Source: Gammaproteobacteria bacterium
GTDB taxonomy: Bacteria; Pseudomonadota; Gammaproteobacteria; UBA4575
DNA length: 47,134 nt
Direction: 5' to 3'
NCBI GenBank assembly: GCA_028285655.1
Contig: JANQOT010000090.1
Span: 1-47,134, forward strand
Shown: piece by piece, positions 1-6,700 of the stretch
Numbering within the stretch: position 1 is the stretch's first letter
How the letters are laid out: every line of letters starts with the position of its first letter
Translations under genes and position numbers: made by a program
The notes under the pieces: generated by a model
Databases searched by the model: none
What the model was told of the DNA's origin: nothing
What the model saw: the letters and a program-made list of their open reading frames with translations, nothing else

Positions 1-217
1 CAACCACACCGAGCGTTCGCACGCCGACACTTTCGGAGTTTGATTGAAATGCATCTTTAAGTGCAGCAGCAACCACCGGATTGCGCGCCTTGTACGCCGT
101 ATCCGGGCTGGACGCTACAGATTGCGCATTTGAAATATTACTTGCGGTTATATTCAGGCGAGCGGTTTGCGCACTTAAGCCGCTGCCGGAAATATCAAAA
201 ATGTTAAATAGCGACAT
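1..217 (-). CDS. flgC: Flagellar basal-body rod protein FlgC, partial (C-terminal part runs off the window)
   Basis: Reverse-strand translation from 217 gives MSLFNIFDISGSGLSAQTARLNITASNISNAQ..., typical FlgC N-terminus; directly downstream of flgB. Confidence 0.93.
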   Translation of the reverse strand, partial: MSLFNIFDISGSGLSAQTARLNITASNISNAQSVASSPDTAYKARNPVVAAALKDAFQSNSESVGVRTLGVV

Positions 218-221
218 TTAT

Positions 222-629
222 TTATTCACCTCGTAGCGTTCTGATAAACCCACTGATTCTTTTACTCAGAATCGATAAACTGATCTGGTAACGTAATGCA
301 TTCTCGGTAAATGCCGATTTTTCATGATCGCTGTCTACGGTATTACCATCCAAAGAAGCCTGTTCTGGAATGCGATAACGAATCGCGTTTGCAGCCAAAA
401 CTCCTGCGTTGTTAGATATATGTCCTGCCTGGCTGGCCGCAATTTTGACCGCGCCGGTATTTTGCAATCCCTGCATATCTTTCAAGGCCGCGCTAAAATC
501 AAAATCGCGTGCCTTGTAATTTGGTGTATCTGCATTTGCCAGATTAGCCGCCAGCAATTCGGCTCTTTGCGAACGCAGTTGCACCGATTGCGCGTGAATG
601 CCAAATAATTGATTAATCGGATTGGGCAT
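222..629 (-). CDS. flgB: Flagellar basal-body rod protein FlgB
   Basis: QLFGIHAQSVQLRSQRAELLAANLANADTPNYKARDFDF motif; adjacent flgC. Confidence 0.95.
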   Translation of the reverse strand: MPNPINQLFGIHAQSVQLRSQRAELLAANLANADTPNYKARDFDFSAALKDMQGLQNTGAVKIAASQAGHISNNAGVLAANAIRYRIPEQASLDGNTVDSDHEKSAFTENALRYQISLSILSKRISGFIRTLRGE

Positions 630-659: not shown

Positions 660-686
660 TAAAGCAATCGCTGTGCCAGCCGATAA
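660..686 (+). promoter_or_regulatory. Candidate sigma-28 (FliA) promoter upstream of flgA-flgM-flgN
   Basis: TAAA-N15-GCCGATAA, exact match to the core consensus. Confidence 0.8.
663..678 (-). promoter_or_regulatory. Candidate sigma-54 (RpoN) promoter for flgBC
   Basis: Reverse strand reads TGGCACAGCGATTGCT: GG-N10-GC spacing, matches TGGCAC-N5-TTGCW; predicted start about 22-24 nt upstream of the flgB ATG. Confidence 0.8.
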
Positions 687-872
687 ACTACGTTCGGATC
701 TAAAATTCGACCGCTGATCCGCTTATTTGAAAATTCGAATTCAGAATTTGCCGGTGCCCGGCAAAGCTTGCAGCCCTGCAAATAAAAATTTCAGAAATAT
801 GCTCGATCAAACTTCCCGGCATGAACCTTGCTTATCATTAAACATGAGTAAATTTTTTGACGACGAAAAAAC

Positions 873-1610
873 ATGAGAACGTTTACCTTTCGCAACTGCC
901 GGTTGAATATTCCCTGCGCCACCTTATTAATAGGTATGAGCCTGACGTCCGTGGCTTCAGCAACTTCGAATCTCGAAAATATGCAGGATCATCAACAAAT
1001 AATTGATCAGACGGTAGCGTTTATCGAGCAAGATCTGCAGATTGATCCTGCTGATGCGACCGTTAGCGTGAAATCACTGGATCGACGTTTGCGCTTGCAT
1101 CAATGCTCACAACCCTTACAAATTTTCTGGCCGCCGGGTGCGCAAAAAATCGGTCACACGTCAATCGGGATTCGCTGTCAGGACTACAAGCCCTGGAAAA
1201 TTTTTATCGGGGCACACATTCAGAAATTTACCGATGTATGGGTAACCACCACCACCATTGGCCGCGGAACCATTCTTGAAGATCGGCACGTAAGGCTGGA
1301 ACGCCGCGATATCAGTAAATCCATAAGGCATTATTTTTCCAGCGAACAAAGCCCGGTAGGCTTGATTGCAAAACGACCCTTGCGAGCCGGCGATACGCTG
1401 CAAATGTCGGCTGTCGCCAAGCAAAAGCTTGTGAAACGCGGTGATCGAGTGCATGTTATAGGCAGGAAAAATGGTCTGGAAATTCGTACCGTCGCCACCG
1501 CTTTAAGCGACGGTGCAGATGGCGACCGGATTCGCGTCCGCAGCCTGACCACAAAAAAGGAGCTGGAAGGAATTTTGCGCCAAAATAGCACTGTATACGT
1601 AAATATTTGA
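873..1610 (+). CDS. flgA: Flagellar P-ring chaperone FlgA
   Basis: Signal peptide; C-terminal SAF-like region (RPLRAGDTLQMSAVAKQKLVKRGDRVHVIGRKNGLEIRT...); position before flgM/flgN. Confidence 0.9.
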   Translation: MRTFTFRNCRLNIPCATLLIGMSLTSVASATSNLENMQDHQQIIDQTVAFIEQDLQIDPADATVSVKSLDRRLRLHQCSQPLQIFWPPGAQKIGHTSIGIRCQDYKPWKIFIGAHIQKFTDVWVTTTTIGRGTILEDRHVRLERRDISKSIRHYFSSEQSPVGLIAKRPLRAGDTLQMSAVAKQKLVKRGDRVHVIGRKNGLEIRTVATALSDGADGDRIRVRSLTTKKELEGILRQNSTVYVNI

Positions 1611-1630: not shown

Positions 1631-1657
1631 TAAAGATTTAATAATTTAGGCCGATAT
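1631..1657 (+). promoter_or_regulatory. Candidate sigma-28 promoter of flgM-flgN
   Basis: TAAA-N15-GCCGATAT, 7/8 in the -10, 28 nt upstream of the flgM ATG. Confidence 0.7.
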
Positions 1658-1684: not shown

Positions 1685-2005
1685 ATGACTGATGTGATTA
1701 AGAATGTGAATACAAACCAGGTATCAGGAAGCAACGTAAAATCGACATCGCTGCCCGCAAAGGACGGTGACAAAGCCGTTGCGACCAATAAAGCGGAGTC
1801 TGCTGCGGTCGCCAGTAACGACCAGGTCGAACTCACCAGTGCTGCAAAAAAACTGGACGAAGTCGTCGCCGGTCTGGCCAGCGAGCCAGTAGTGGACCGC
1901 CAGAAAGTCGAAGCGGTAAAACAGGCGTTAGCCGACGGTAAATATCAGATCGACAGCGCCAATATTGCCCAAAAATTGATCGAAATCGACGACCTTCTTA
2001 AGTAA
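1685..2005 (+). CDS. flgM: Anti-sigma-28 factor FlgM
   Basis: 106 aa; C-terminal DRQKVEAVKQALADGKYQIDSANIAQKLIEID characteristic of FlgM. Confidence 0.93.
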   Translation: MTDVIKNVNTNQVSGSNVKSTSLPAKDGDKAVATNKAESAAVASNDQVELTSAAKKLDEVVAGLASEPVVDRQKVEAVKQALADGKYQIDSANIAQKLIEIDDLLK

Positions 2006-2029: not shown

Positions 2030-2497
2030 ATGGACGGATACCATCCACATCACACCGCTGAAGAAGCGGTCAACGCATTACAAAAATGTGTTTCTATTTT
2101 CCTGGATCTGTTATCGGCAGAAAGAGATTTACTTTTAAACGGAAACGCCGAAAATCTTGCCGAAGTCACAGAAAACAAGCAGCAAGTGCTGAACGATTTG
2201 GCACTGCTGGAGAACCAGATTCGACCCCATATTGCGTCCTTGAATCAGGACAGTAACAATCAAGAAAACGGCATCTCGGCCGAATTAAAGCAAAAATGGA
2301 ATGGTGTCGTTGAAACGCTAGTCGAATGCCAAAATATCAATACTGAAAACGGCACTTTGGTAAATATGCTGCTTAATCAGTCCAAGAATGCGTTGCATCA
2401 ATTGTATTCACTATGCAACATCAACAGCGTGACCACCTATAATGAAAACGGCAATCAACACTTCCAGGCACCGTCGAACCGGTCAATTCACGTTTAA
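2030..2497 (+). CDS. flgN: Flagellar chaperone FlgN-like
   Basis: Small helical protein immediately after flgM; LLxxERDLLL...ENKQQVLNDLALLENQ pattern. Confidence 0.8.
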   Translation: MDGYHPHHTAEEAVNALQKCVSIFLDLLSAERDLLLNGNAENLAEVTENKQQVLNDLALLENQIRPHIASLNQDSNNQENGISAELKQKWNGVVETLVECQNINTENGTLVNMLLNQSKNALHQLYSLCNINSVTTYNENGNQHFQAPSNRSIHV

Positions 2498-2688: not shown

Positions 2689-3603
2689 ATGGCGCAACAT
2701 AAACATTCTGAAATAATTCGACCGCTATCGCATTATTCTATTACCGGCCAGGCAGACGAACATTCCGGCTCGGTGCTGCGGTTGATTTACGAATTTCAAA
2801 ATCAGCTATCCTTGCAAGAATTATTTGAAGTGTATGCGAACAATATTTGCGCTGCCTTACCGGTAAACGGCATACGGTACCGCTTCCCCCTGCTGGCCAT
2901 TAATCTTCAGCATGGCGTGGTGTCCAACCCTATTTGTAACTACCAGTTGAATACCGAACACGATGTTTGGGGGGATATAACAATTTACCGGGATAAAGGC
3001 TTTAGCAATGAAGAAATTCATCAGTTTGAATTAATTACCTCTTTACTGGTTCATCCTCTGAAAACAGCAATCCTGCATGCGTCGGCATCGCTATATACGG
3101 ACGACGGCGGAGTGGTCGGATTTGCAAACCCTGACCTGGTGGAACAATTGATTATTCGCGAAGCCAAACTTGCTGCCAGAGAACACGTGCCGATGTCCGT
3201 CATATTGTTTAACACCGACCGTTTCAAAAGAATCTGCGATAGTTTCGGACATATTCATGGCGATAAAATTTTGTATGACATTATGCAAGTGATGCACAGC
3301 AGGCTTAGAGATACCGATTTGTTGTTCAGATACCATGCCGATACTTTTTGTCTGATATTAAAAGGAGTAACCGGCGATCAGGCGATGATGATCAGTGAAC
3401 GAGTTCGTAGCGCTGTCGATGAATTTACTTTTCGTCAGGCAAATAACAAGAAACTACACATGACCATCAGCGGCGGAATTGCAGTGCTGGACAAACAAGA
3501 TTGTCTGGATTCGATTTTAAAAAGAGCTAATAATGCATTACTGCTGGCAAAAAATTCCGGACGCAATCAAAGTATTTTAGCTGACGGGTTTTTCATTAAC
3601 TAA
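2689..3603 (+). CDS. GGDEF-domain protein with degenerate A-site (HADTF) and retained I-site RDTD
   Basis: GGDEF fold (MSVILFNTDRFKRICDSFGHIHGDKILYDIMQVM...RDTDLLFRYHADTFCLIL); N-terminal GAF-like region. Confidence 0.88.
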   Translation: MAQHKHSEIIRPLSHYSITGQADEHSGSVLRLIYEFQNQLSLQELFEVYANNICAALPVNGIRYRFPLLAINLQHGVVSNPICNYQLNTEHDVWGDITIYRDKGFSNEEIHQFELITSLLVHPLKTAILHASASLYTDDGGVVGFANPDLVEQLIIREAKLAAREHVPMSVILFNTDRFKRICDSFGHIHGDKILYDIMQVMHSRLRDTDLLFRYHADTFCLILKGVTGDQAMMISERVRSAVDEFTFRQANNKKLHMTISGGIAVLDKQDCLDSILKRANNALLLAKNSGRNQSILADGFFIN

Positions 3604-4904
3604 GCCGCATTAACAAGTACTTCCACCCTGTTTCTTCCTGAACGTTTTGCTTTATACAGCGCTTTATCAGCACGCTCAAATATAGTCGTAGGCGTATCTT
3701 TTTTTACAAACGATGCCACACCGCAAGAAATGGTGACTTGCAATGGTTGTTGCTTATAAGTGAATTCGGTCGTTGCTATAATTTCTCGAATTTGCTCGGC
3801 TAGTTGTTCACCTTGTTCCAGATCCTTATTATTCAGCAGCATCACAAACTCTTCCCCGCCGAAACGTGCGACCATATCGCTCGCGCCGACACTGGCTTTA
3901 AGTTTTTGGGCCACCGACTGCAGCACTTTATCTCCTGCGGCATGGCCATAACGATCGTTTAGCATTTTAAAATGGTCAATATCCCAAACCAGCAAGGTGG
4001 CCTGTACACTGTTTTCTTTCCACTGCATCCACGCTTTCTCCAACGCTTGAATATATGCCGCACGGTTATACAGCTTTGTCAACGGATCCGTAATCGCTTC
4101 TTCATGTTTTAGGCGAATCGCATTCTCCAAATCGTGCGCATGTTCCTCCAGAGATTTCACTTTGTTGCTAAGCCCGGCAATTTTCTGCTCGAGCACCTGG
4201 GTTTCGTTTTCATCTTGTTCGAGTTCTTTTTCGACCTTATGTTGCAGTGCTTCCACTAATTGATTGAGCGTGTCCTTCAGTGAATGAACATCCTGATTTG
4301 AATTGATCGAACTTTTTAAATCCTGCACACCCTGCTCAAACGAAGAACGTATGTTATTTTTCGATTGACTGTTGGAACAAGTTTCGCGCGCTTCATTTAC
4401 TTCCAGGTAGATTGATTGCAGTTTTTCGGATATTCCCTGCAAGAATTGATAAATTTCCTGTTGATCTTCGTACGCACTATTGGCATGACTCATGAACAAC
4501 TGTTTAGCCCGTTTGGTACAGTCACCGAGATCATGACCGCTATCCAGATCTTCTTTCAGTTTTTTGGCGGTTTCCAGATACATCCCCGAATATGGAATCT
4601 TGACCAACAATTCACGCAAACTTGAAGTCCAGAATTTATTGTATTTTGCATCTGAAATTGAAGAACGCAAAACAAGTATCTGCATGTCAAAAATATCATC
4701 CAAATACCGAATTAAATCACGTTGGCCCAAATGCGACTGGATTTCACGATGGTCCTGGACTTTTTTCTTCAGCTCACGCTTGCTGCCGAATTGAGCATAT
4801 TTATCCAACAAGCCGTTTAAACTTTGGAAAGAAGCAAGCCCCTCGATTTGTTCTTTATTGAGAGTTTTATCGCCCGCAAATAGAGAAAGGAACTTGGTTA
4901 ACAT
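3600..4904 (-). CDS. Diguanylate cyclase (GGEEF) with long helical N-terminus
   Basis: DPLTKLYNRAAYIQALEKA...DIDHFKMLNDRYGHAAGDKVLQ...DMVARFGGEEFVMLL...SCGVASF. Confidence 0.93.
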   Translation of the reverse strand: MLTKFLSLFAGDKTLNKEQIEGLASFQSLNGLLDKYAQFGSKRELKKKVQDHREIQSHLGQRDLIRYLDDIFDMQILVLRSSISDAKYNKFWTSSLRELLVKIPYSGMYLETAKKLKEDLDSGHDLGDCTKRAKQLFMSHANSAYEDQQEIYQFLQGISEKLQSIYLEVNEARETCSNSQSKNNIRSSFEQGVQDLKSSINSNQDVHSLKDTLNQLVEALQHKVEKELEQDENETQVLEQKIAGLSNKVKSLEEHAHDLENAIRLKHEEAITDPLTKLYNRAAYIQALEKAWMQWKENSVQATLLVWDIDHFKMLNDRYGHAAGDKVLQSVAQKLKASVGASDMVARFGGEEFVMLLNNKDLEQGEQLAEQIREIIATTEFTYKQQPLQVTISCGVASFVKKDTPTTIFERADKALYKAKRSGRNRVEVLVNAA

Positions 4905-4942: not shown

Positions 4943-6568
4943 TTATGAAGCTTGCTTGTTTTTATTCTCGTTGAGATTTTCAGAATCATGACCTTGATCG
5001 CCGGCATCCAGTGCGGCATGCGCGTCATCTGCCCAAGGGCGTGTGGACCAGTCTCTGCGTTCGTGCGTAAATAAAGGTTTTGGTTCTGAGTACAGTTTAT
5101 TTAACGGGATCGACAACCCATCGGCTTGCACAATTCGCGCATGAAAGCGATTTAAGTCTCTCAAATGTTTTACACCGCATGAATGCGCAATCATACCGAC
5201 TTCGTAGACCATATTCTGCACATAATGTTTTACACGTTCTGCTTTTACATAAGGATCCAATCCCCTCTGGAATTTGGCATCATGAGTTGTGATTCCAGTC
5301 GGACAAGTATTTTTATTACACTGTAACGCCTGGATACAACCAATCGAGAACATAAACCCGCGTGCTGACGTTATAAAATCCGCCCCCACGCATAAAGCCC
5401 AGGCAACATCTGCCGGCGTTATTAATTTACCCGAAGCGATAACTTTGATTCGATCACGCAAACCATGCTCAATTAGCTTGTTTACGACAATCGGTAAACT
5501 TTCATGCAAGGGAAGTCCCATATCGTCAAGCAAGGGAAGCGGCGCGGCTCCGGTTCCACCATCGGCACTGTCAACAGTAATAAAGTCCGGTGCATATTCC
5601 GCACCTCGCCGCAGAATGGCAGAACACAAATGGTCCAGCCAACTTTCCGACCCAATGACCGCTTTAAATCCAACTGGCTTTCCGGTCACGTTTCGTATGC
5701 GATTAATTACGTCCAGTAAATCATCGTCACACTTGATTTCCGGATGCCGATTTGGACTAATTGAATCTTTTCCTTCAGGAATACAGCGAATTTCTGCGAT
5801 TTCTTTGGTGACTTTATCACCCGGCAGTATGCCGCCTTTACCCGGTTTTCCACCCTGGCTTAATTTAAGCTCAAACATGCGAACCTGGTGGTGCCCAGCG
5901 ACTTCTTTTAATTTGTCATCGCTGAGTTTTCCGGTTTCCGGATCTCTGACACCGTATTTAGCAGTACCGATCTGAAACACAATGTCGCAGCCGCTTGCCA
6001 AATGATATTTAGATAAGCCGCCTTCCCCGGTGTTCAACCAGCAAGCCGCCTGTTTCGCCCCGAAAGATAAGGACTGTATTGCCGGCTTCGATAGTGCACC
6101 GTAACTCATGCCGGAAATGTTAAAAATCGAATTGGTGGTAAACGGCGTTTTGGCATATGGTCCGATAGTATCGTAGTCGGGAGCCGTCGCATCTTCGGAC
6201 ATGGTTGGATAGGGGCAATTGGAAAACAGTACAGTTCCGGCTTTGTTTAGATCGCGACTGGAACCAAAAGCTGCGGTGTTGGAGATATTTTTTGCCGCTC
6301 GATAAACCCAGGAGCGTTGCGCACGATTGAAGGGCATTTCTTCCCGGTCGGCAGCGAAAAAATACTGGCGAAAGAATTCTCCCAAATACTCGAATAAATA
6401 CCGAAAACGCCCTATTACCGGATAGTTTTTTCGAATGGCATGCTTTGTTTGAGTAACGTCAATCAGGTACAAAATTACGACGACACATACGGCTGTAACT
6501 AAGGCTAATGCCAGCGATACCTGTACGAATGAATTTATAGTAGAGGTCCAGCCGAGAAAGTATTCCAT
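4943..6568 (-). CDS. FMN-binding glutamate synthase family protein
   Basis: GltS-like motifs: ISGMSYGALSKPAIQSLSFGAK, GEGGLSKYH, TVDSADGGTGAAP, NKNTCPTGITTHD. Confidence 0.92.
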   Translation of the reverse strand: MEYFLGWTSTINSFVQVSLALALVTAVCVVVILYLIDVTQTKHAIRKNYPVIGRFRYLFEYLGEFFRQYFFAADREEMPFNRAQRSWVYRAAKNISNTAAFGSSRDLNKAGTVLFSNCPYPTMSEDATAPDYDTIGPYAKTPFTTNSIFNISGMSYGALSKPAIQSLSFGAKQAACWLNTGEGGLSKYHLASGCDIVFQIGTAKYGVRDPETGKLSDDKLKEVAGHHQVRMFELKLSQGGKPGKGGILPGDKVTKEIAEIRCIPEGKDSISPNRHPEIKCDDDLLDVINRIRNVTGKPVGFKAVIGSESWLDHLCSAILRRGAEYAPDFITVDSADGGTGAAPLPLLDDMGLPLHESLPIVVNKLIEHGLRDRIKVIASGKLITPADVAWALCVGADFITSARGFMFSIGCIQALQCNKNTCPTGITTHDAKFQRGLDPYVKAERVKHYVQNMVYEVGMIAHSCGVKHLRDLNRFHARIVQADGLSIPLNKLYSEPKPLFTHERRDWSTRPWADDAHAALDAGDQGHDSENLNENKNKQAS

Positions 6569-6700
6569 GTAAGCTTCCTGATAGAAATTTCTATTTATTC
6601 AAGAATTTATCGGCCAAATTTTGCTTAGCTTTAAGTGTCTCAGCATGGCCATGCGAAATATTCGTTCTGTCGCCGACAATCGGCCTTAGTTAGCTAATTG

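Follow-up and report, generated by a model that had tools for sequence, protein, structure and literature searches.

The shut-off of early flagellar genes after hook completion is less well explained than the activation of the late ones. A divergent flagellar locus of a gammaproteobacterium raises this question in compact form. In the window analysed here (the whole stretch of 47,134 nucleotides of contig JANQOT010000090.1), the intergenic region between flgB and flgA holds a 27-bp block that matches a sigma-28 promoter on one strand and, nested within it, a sigma-54 promoter on the other. Such a layout asks whether the two holoenzymes could compete for one site and what this competition would mean for the two operons. 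Our reading, which we hold at a probability of about 55 %, is that the block combines an early and a late promoter whose use is mutually exclusive, with a role in the handover between the two phases.

Results

Two flagellar promoter matches interlock within 27 bp

The calls of flgC and flgB on the minus strand and of flgA, flgM and flgN on the plus strand were upheld by Pfam (Table 1). The genome of the window (G000; 275 contigs, 86 % complete) encodes both rpoN and fliA, and its FliA matches TIGR02479 over the cut-off.

Table 1 Genes and predicted regulatory elements around the nested block
Feature	Position	Strand	Description
flgC	2-217	-	Pfam Flg_bb_rod; cut by contig edge
flgB, proximal rod	222-629	-	Pfam Flg_bb_rod
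Sigma-28 promoter facing flgA	660-686	+	TAAA-N15-GCCGATAA, perfect match
Sigma-28 -35	660-663	+	TAAA
Sigma-28 spacer	664-678	+	15 nt
Sigma-28 -10	679-686	+	GCCGATAA
Sigma-54 promoter of flgB	663-679	-	CTGGCACAGCGATTGCT, read 679 to 663
Inverted repeat	748-764		TTGCCGGTGCCCGGCAA, TTGCCG-N5-CGGCAA; between the flgB and flgA sigma-54 promoters
Second inverted repeat	768-781		TTGCAGCCCTGCAA; adjoins the first repeat; direct reading
Second sigma-54-type promoter, flgA-proximal	816-832	+	CCGGCATGAACCTTGCT, score 14.3
flgA, P-ring chaperone	873-1610	+	Pfam ChapFlgA
Own sigma-28 promoter of flgM	1631-1657	+	TAAA-N15-GCCGATAT
flgM, anti-sigma-28	1685-2005	+	Pfam FlgM
flgN	2030-2497	+	Pfam FlgN

The original prediction had placed a perfect sigma-28 promoter in the block, with an antiparallel sigma-54 promoter of flgB inside its spacer. 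On re-reading, the sequence and coordinates proved exact, and both putative promoters are genuine consensus matches. The full TAAA-N15-GCCGATAA pattern of sigma-28 is present, with a predicted start at about 692-697 (+). On the minus strand, from 678 to 663, the sigma-54 core reads TGGCAC-AGCGA-TTGCT (TGGCAC-N5-TTGCT), with the GG-N10-GC core and TGGCAY-N5-TTGCW pattern before flgB, a known RpoN-regulated gene; its predicted +1 is 652 (-). A sigma-54 promoter also calls for an activator site some 80-150 bp upstream, for which the inverted repeat at 748-764 is a candidate.

The sigma-54 core (663-678) occupies the whole sigma-28 spacer as well as base 663 of the -35, and position 679 is both the sigma-54 -27 pyrimidine and the first base of the sigma-28 -10. 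Read from the sequence, the recognition elements overlap by 17 bases, as an exclusive promoter pair requires. Simultaneous occupancy by both holoenzymes therefore appears sterically implausible from this geometry, which supports the exclusive binding that had been predicted.

Both matches exceed chance expectation. The flgB site is the only perfect TGGCAC-N5-TTGCW match in the 47-kb window. It scores 19.1 of 21.9, against 14.3 for the next best site in the 47 kb, with weight matrices that approximate published consensus sequences. Pattern counts are independent of these matrices, and genome-wide promoter ranking used patterns only. For sigma-28, five matches with at most one mismatch were found in the window vs 0.57 expected. 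Among 4000 sequences simulated under a first-order Markov model of the intergenic region (243 bp), a sigma-54 site scoring at least 17 arose in 4 sequences, a sigma-28 site scoring at least 18 in 2, and an overlapping antiparallel pair in none.

flgM and flgA have promoter candidates of their own

The sigma-28 promoter of flgM lies 27 nt upstream of the flgM start codon, and an flgM with its own sigma-28 promoter also occurs in the relatives G002 and G134. The sigma-54-like site at 816-832, with a predicted +1 at about 843, is likely the sigma-54 promoter of flgA; the closest flagellated relative, G003, has TCGGCATGAACTTTGCA at the matching place.

Other features of the window

Sigma-28 matches also lie elsewhere in the window. 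A perfect promoter match at 6607-6633 (-) stands 38 bp upstream of the gene for a 541-aa protein (4943-6568) which by eye resembles an FMN-binding enzyme of the glutamate-synthase family; such a target of sigma-28 is unexpected. Another perfect match, at 2111-2137 (-), runs antisense within flgN. Beside flgN are two GGDEF-type genes, 2689-3603 (+) by Pfam and 3600-4904 (-) by eye, which overlap tail-to-tail by a few bases.

The block is conserved in register in a close relative

The host order consists of one family with 19 genomes, 6 of which have flgB. G003 belongs to a different genus and shares 61 % FlgB identity with the window's genome. Its block is identical at 26/27 positions vs 123/226 (54 %) in the remaining intergenic region, and the TTATCGGC octamer, which lies outside the sigma-54 core, is kept as well. 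The conservation test that had been proposed for relatives thus came out in favour of the pair, both elements being co-conserved in register. The single change in G003 turns the -35 from TAAA into TATA, which may weaken its sigma-28 promoter, and in four genomes of the same family, all from genus g3, the sigma-54 promoter is retained and the sigma-28 -10 is missing. Such decay would fit an account in which the sigma-54 promoter alone is functional, the sigma-28 match having survived as a relic or arisen by coincidence. We consider that account improbable in view of the class-wide results below.

Across the class, sigma-28 sites concentrate at a single offset

Allowing at most 2 mismatches, the composite pattern had 6 matches in 370 gammaproteobacterial genomes, 5 of them directly upstream of flgB (G000, G003, G129, G134 and G095); the reversed control pattern had 1 match in the same 370. 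A two-mismatch match in G371, away from flgB on another contig, was put down to chance.

For a test of register, 129 flgB upstream regions of the class were chosen without selecting on the pattern, and a sigma-54 promoter faces flgB in 116 of them. Sigma-28 sites scoring at least 16 and facing away from flgB were counted at 201 offsets, from -100 to +100. Only seven such sites exist among the 116 promoters, and five sit at offset 0, the exact register of the window. The -35 motif (TTTA on the flgB strand) is present in 4/5 promoters that have the -10 and in 3/111 that do not (Fisher 2.4e-5). Every one of the five carriers has a divergent flgA, which was detected in 31/129 regions overall (Fisher 6e-4). 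Both the register-locked recurrence and the -35/-10 association speak against a relic.

The composite is nevertheless rare, being present in just 5 of the 116 promoters, and in a FlgBCD tree (displayed with no support values) all five carriers belong to a single clade of about 13 genomes, non-carriers among them. Because the carriers occupy one part of the tree, shared descent adds to the counts above; one old gain followed by several losses would be the simplest reading of their distribution. FliA was found in G000, G003, G134 and G095. A search of carrier G129 (98 % complete) did not find it, a point for the relic account; sigma-28-type promoters precede fliC and flgK in that genome.

The octamer could instead serve a different regulator as its operator, or extend the contact made by sigma-54, as the distance between TTATCGGC and the adjoining -24 element is fixed. 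This we regard as very improbable: the octamer matches the FliA -10 exactly, is found again ahead of fliC and flgK in G129, accompanies TAAA exactly 15 bases away, and is missing from more than 95 % of flgB sigma-54 promoters.

A candidate enhancer lies between the two sigma-54 promoters

The centre of the repeat at 748-764 lies about 104 bp upstream of the start predicted for flgB and 87 bp from that predicted for flgA. Across the Gammaproteobacteria, 85/116 regions have such an inverted repeat (up to 2 mismatches allowed) in the 250 bp that precede the flgB sigma-54 site, vs 7.5 expected, and class-wide the positions of the repeat hexamers show a sharp peak 50-100 bp before that site. Because of this excess and the sharp distance peak, the repeat is most likely the binding site (UAS) of the class III activator, presumably of the FlrC/FleR type, and this candidate enhancer may serve both the flgB and the flgA sigma-54 promoters. 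The adjoining repeat at 768-781, which has a counterpart, TTGCATGCAA, at the corresponding place in L003, is a possible tandem activator site.

The interlocked layout recurs in another phylum

Scanning 84,980 species genomes for TTATCGGC joined to the sigma-54 core, with the -35 left free, returned 52 matches. An intact -35 is present in exactly four, and all four are flagellar: two at flgB and two at flgD. The flgB pair, both with a divergent flgA, are L028 (= G129) and L047 (= G134). The other two (L026 and L068) are Lentisphaerota in which, with gene names assigned by eye from translations, the composite lies upstream of flgD-flgE-motA and a response-regulator gene is divergent. Both encode FliA; in four other members of that Lentisphaerota order the composite was not found. 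Since gene, phylum and spacer sequence all differ, the Lentisphaerota composite is probably of independent origin. An interlocked layout at flagellar genes of such distant relatives is therefore probably no coincidence, and the recurrence at flgD counts further against a relic.

The 52 matches do not amount to a widespread element. About 30 are one stretch, apparently coding and devoid of the -35, with the common context CGTTATCGGCTGGCA... followed by TGCATAT or TGCATGT, mostly in Burkholderiales-type genomes (Oxalobacteraceae, Comamonadaceae), and these were discarded. A site in a Spongiibacteraceae flgB-flgA region (L053, 5283-5306) was not counted, as its TTATCGGC-TGGCAC arrangement faces flgA and lacks the sigma-28 -35. 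In Erwinia oleae (L063, 1467-1490 on the minus strand) the -10 abuts the sigma-54 element, with a TATA -35, upstream of an apparent hrpL-type sigma gene, possibly by chance.

Discussion

A model for the early-to-late handover

If both promoters are active, the layout suggests the following sequence of events. Early in assembly, the RpoN holoenzyme would park at the minus-strand -24/-12 element, and the flgB rod operon would be transcribed when an activator on the 748-764 repeat fires. The weaker flgA-proximal RpoN promoter would share the same enhancer. Later, with the hook complete and FlgM exported, FliA would be free, and its holoenzyme would bind the block in the opposite direction and keep the RpoN holoenzyme off the flgB promoter. 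The late transcript would reach flgA-flgM-flgN after crossing the enhancer and the sigma-54 promoter of flgA. The net outcome would be less initiation at the rod operon and at the early flgA promoter, with flgA, flgM and flgN still expressed. Occlusion of flgB by FliA together with read-through would thus constitute an early-to-late handover. Should FliA bind only transiently, it might not hold the site long enough to shut flgB.

The original prediction had proposed a different switch, in which early RpoN occupancy blocks FlgM and later FliA occupancy raises it. The flanking elements lend this no support, given the sigma-28 promoter that flgM has of its own and the second sigma-54-like site at flgA. 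With further promoters at flgM, and probably at flgA, the supply of FlgM should not hinge on the nested promoter, and we rejected a requirement for the nested promoter in FlgM feedback on account of the flgM promoter at 1631-1657. More plausibly, the switch is a late turn-off of early rod and P-ring transcription.

Both promoters might work and their exclusion still be incidental. The nested sigma-28 promoter would then merely add late expression of flgA-flgM-flgN, its position being one that evolution could reach at little cost. The sequence after the -12 (TTGCTTTA), rich in T, already supplies the sigma-28 -35: where TTTA comes directly after the invariant GC of the -12, the complementary strand has TAAAGC. 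TTTA stands behind the -12 in 7/116 promoters, well above the random 1 in 256. The fixed length of the sigma-54 element also equals the fixed sigma-28 spacer, so the composite evolves easily. With the -35 prepaid by sigma-54 geometry, only GCCGATAA therefore had to arise. Sigma-28 sites that face away from flgB without being nested (L171 and L012) fit this account too. We nonetheless find it rather doubtful: long co-conservation in one register suggests more than added late expression, and late flgM is already provided by its separate sigma-28 promoter.

Comparison with known systems

Sigma-factor competition at overlapping promoters is known. In E. coli, the sigma-54 holoenzyme represses overlapping sigma-70 promoters in vitro via binding competition (PMC4551910), and PMC4591121 also cites repression by sigma-54 where promoters overlap. 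The E. coli cases (argT, chaC, mdfA and patA; PMC4551910) resemble the flgB/flgA block in that holoenzymes compete at overlapping sites. They differ in that sigma-54 is paired with sigma-70 and its site is mainly a blocker, whereas here two canonical flagellar promoters serve opposite operons and the sigma-54 core lies inside the sigma-28 spacer. Overlapping RpoN/RpoD promoters at crl, where the use of one sigma silences the other, were reportedly described by Zafar et al. in 2014, a study that PMC4591121 and PMC4551910 cite. Unlike the flgB/flgA block, these reportedly face the same direction, pair sigma-54 with sigma-70 and do not serve divergent operons.

The hierarchy of the polar flagellates Vibrio and Pseudomonas, with flgB as a class III sigma-54 gene and flgM under its own late sigma-28 promoter (PMC3930126, PMC8036289), is matched here on both points. 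The V. cholerae flgA promoter is reported to be independent of RpoN and FliA (PMC3930126); Pseudomonas flgA belongs to class II, and its flgM to classes II and IV (PMC8036289). Here a sigma-28 promoter is predicted ahead of flgA and within that of flgB, an arrangement that was not found in the papers searched. More generally, the literature searched, a set outside which most subscription papers fall, yielded no account of a sigma-54 promoter that lies antiparallel within the spacer of a sigma-28 promoter.

Conclusions

The composite can be detected in other genomes by a simple sequence pattern, and the promoter-pair model predicts specific and separable phenotypes for point mutants. More tentatively, and with the odds somewhat against so broad a claim, the register-locked sigma-54/sigma-28 composite may have evolved repeatedly at divergent flagellar operons, where the release of FliA at hook completion would shut rod-gene initiation by exclusion and by read-through of the enhancer. 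If this is true, free FliA that excludes the RpoN polymerase from the rod operon would provide a repressor-free answer to the question of early-gene shut-off.
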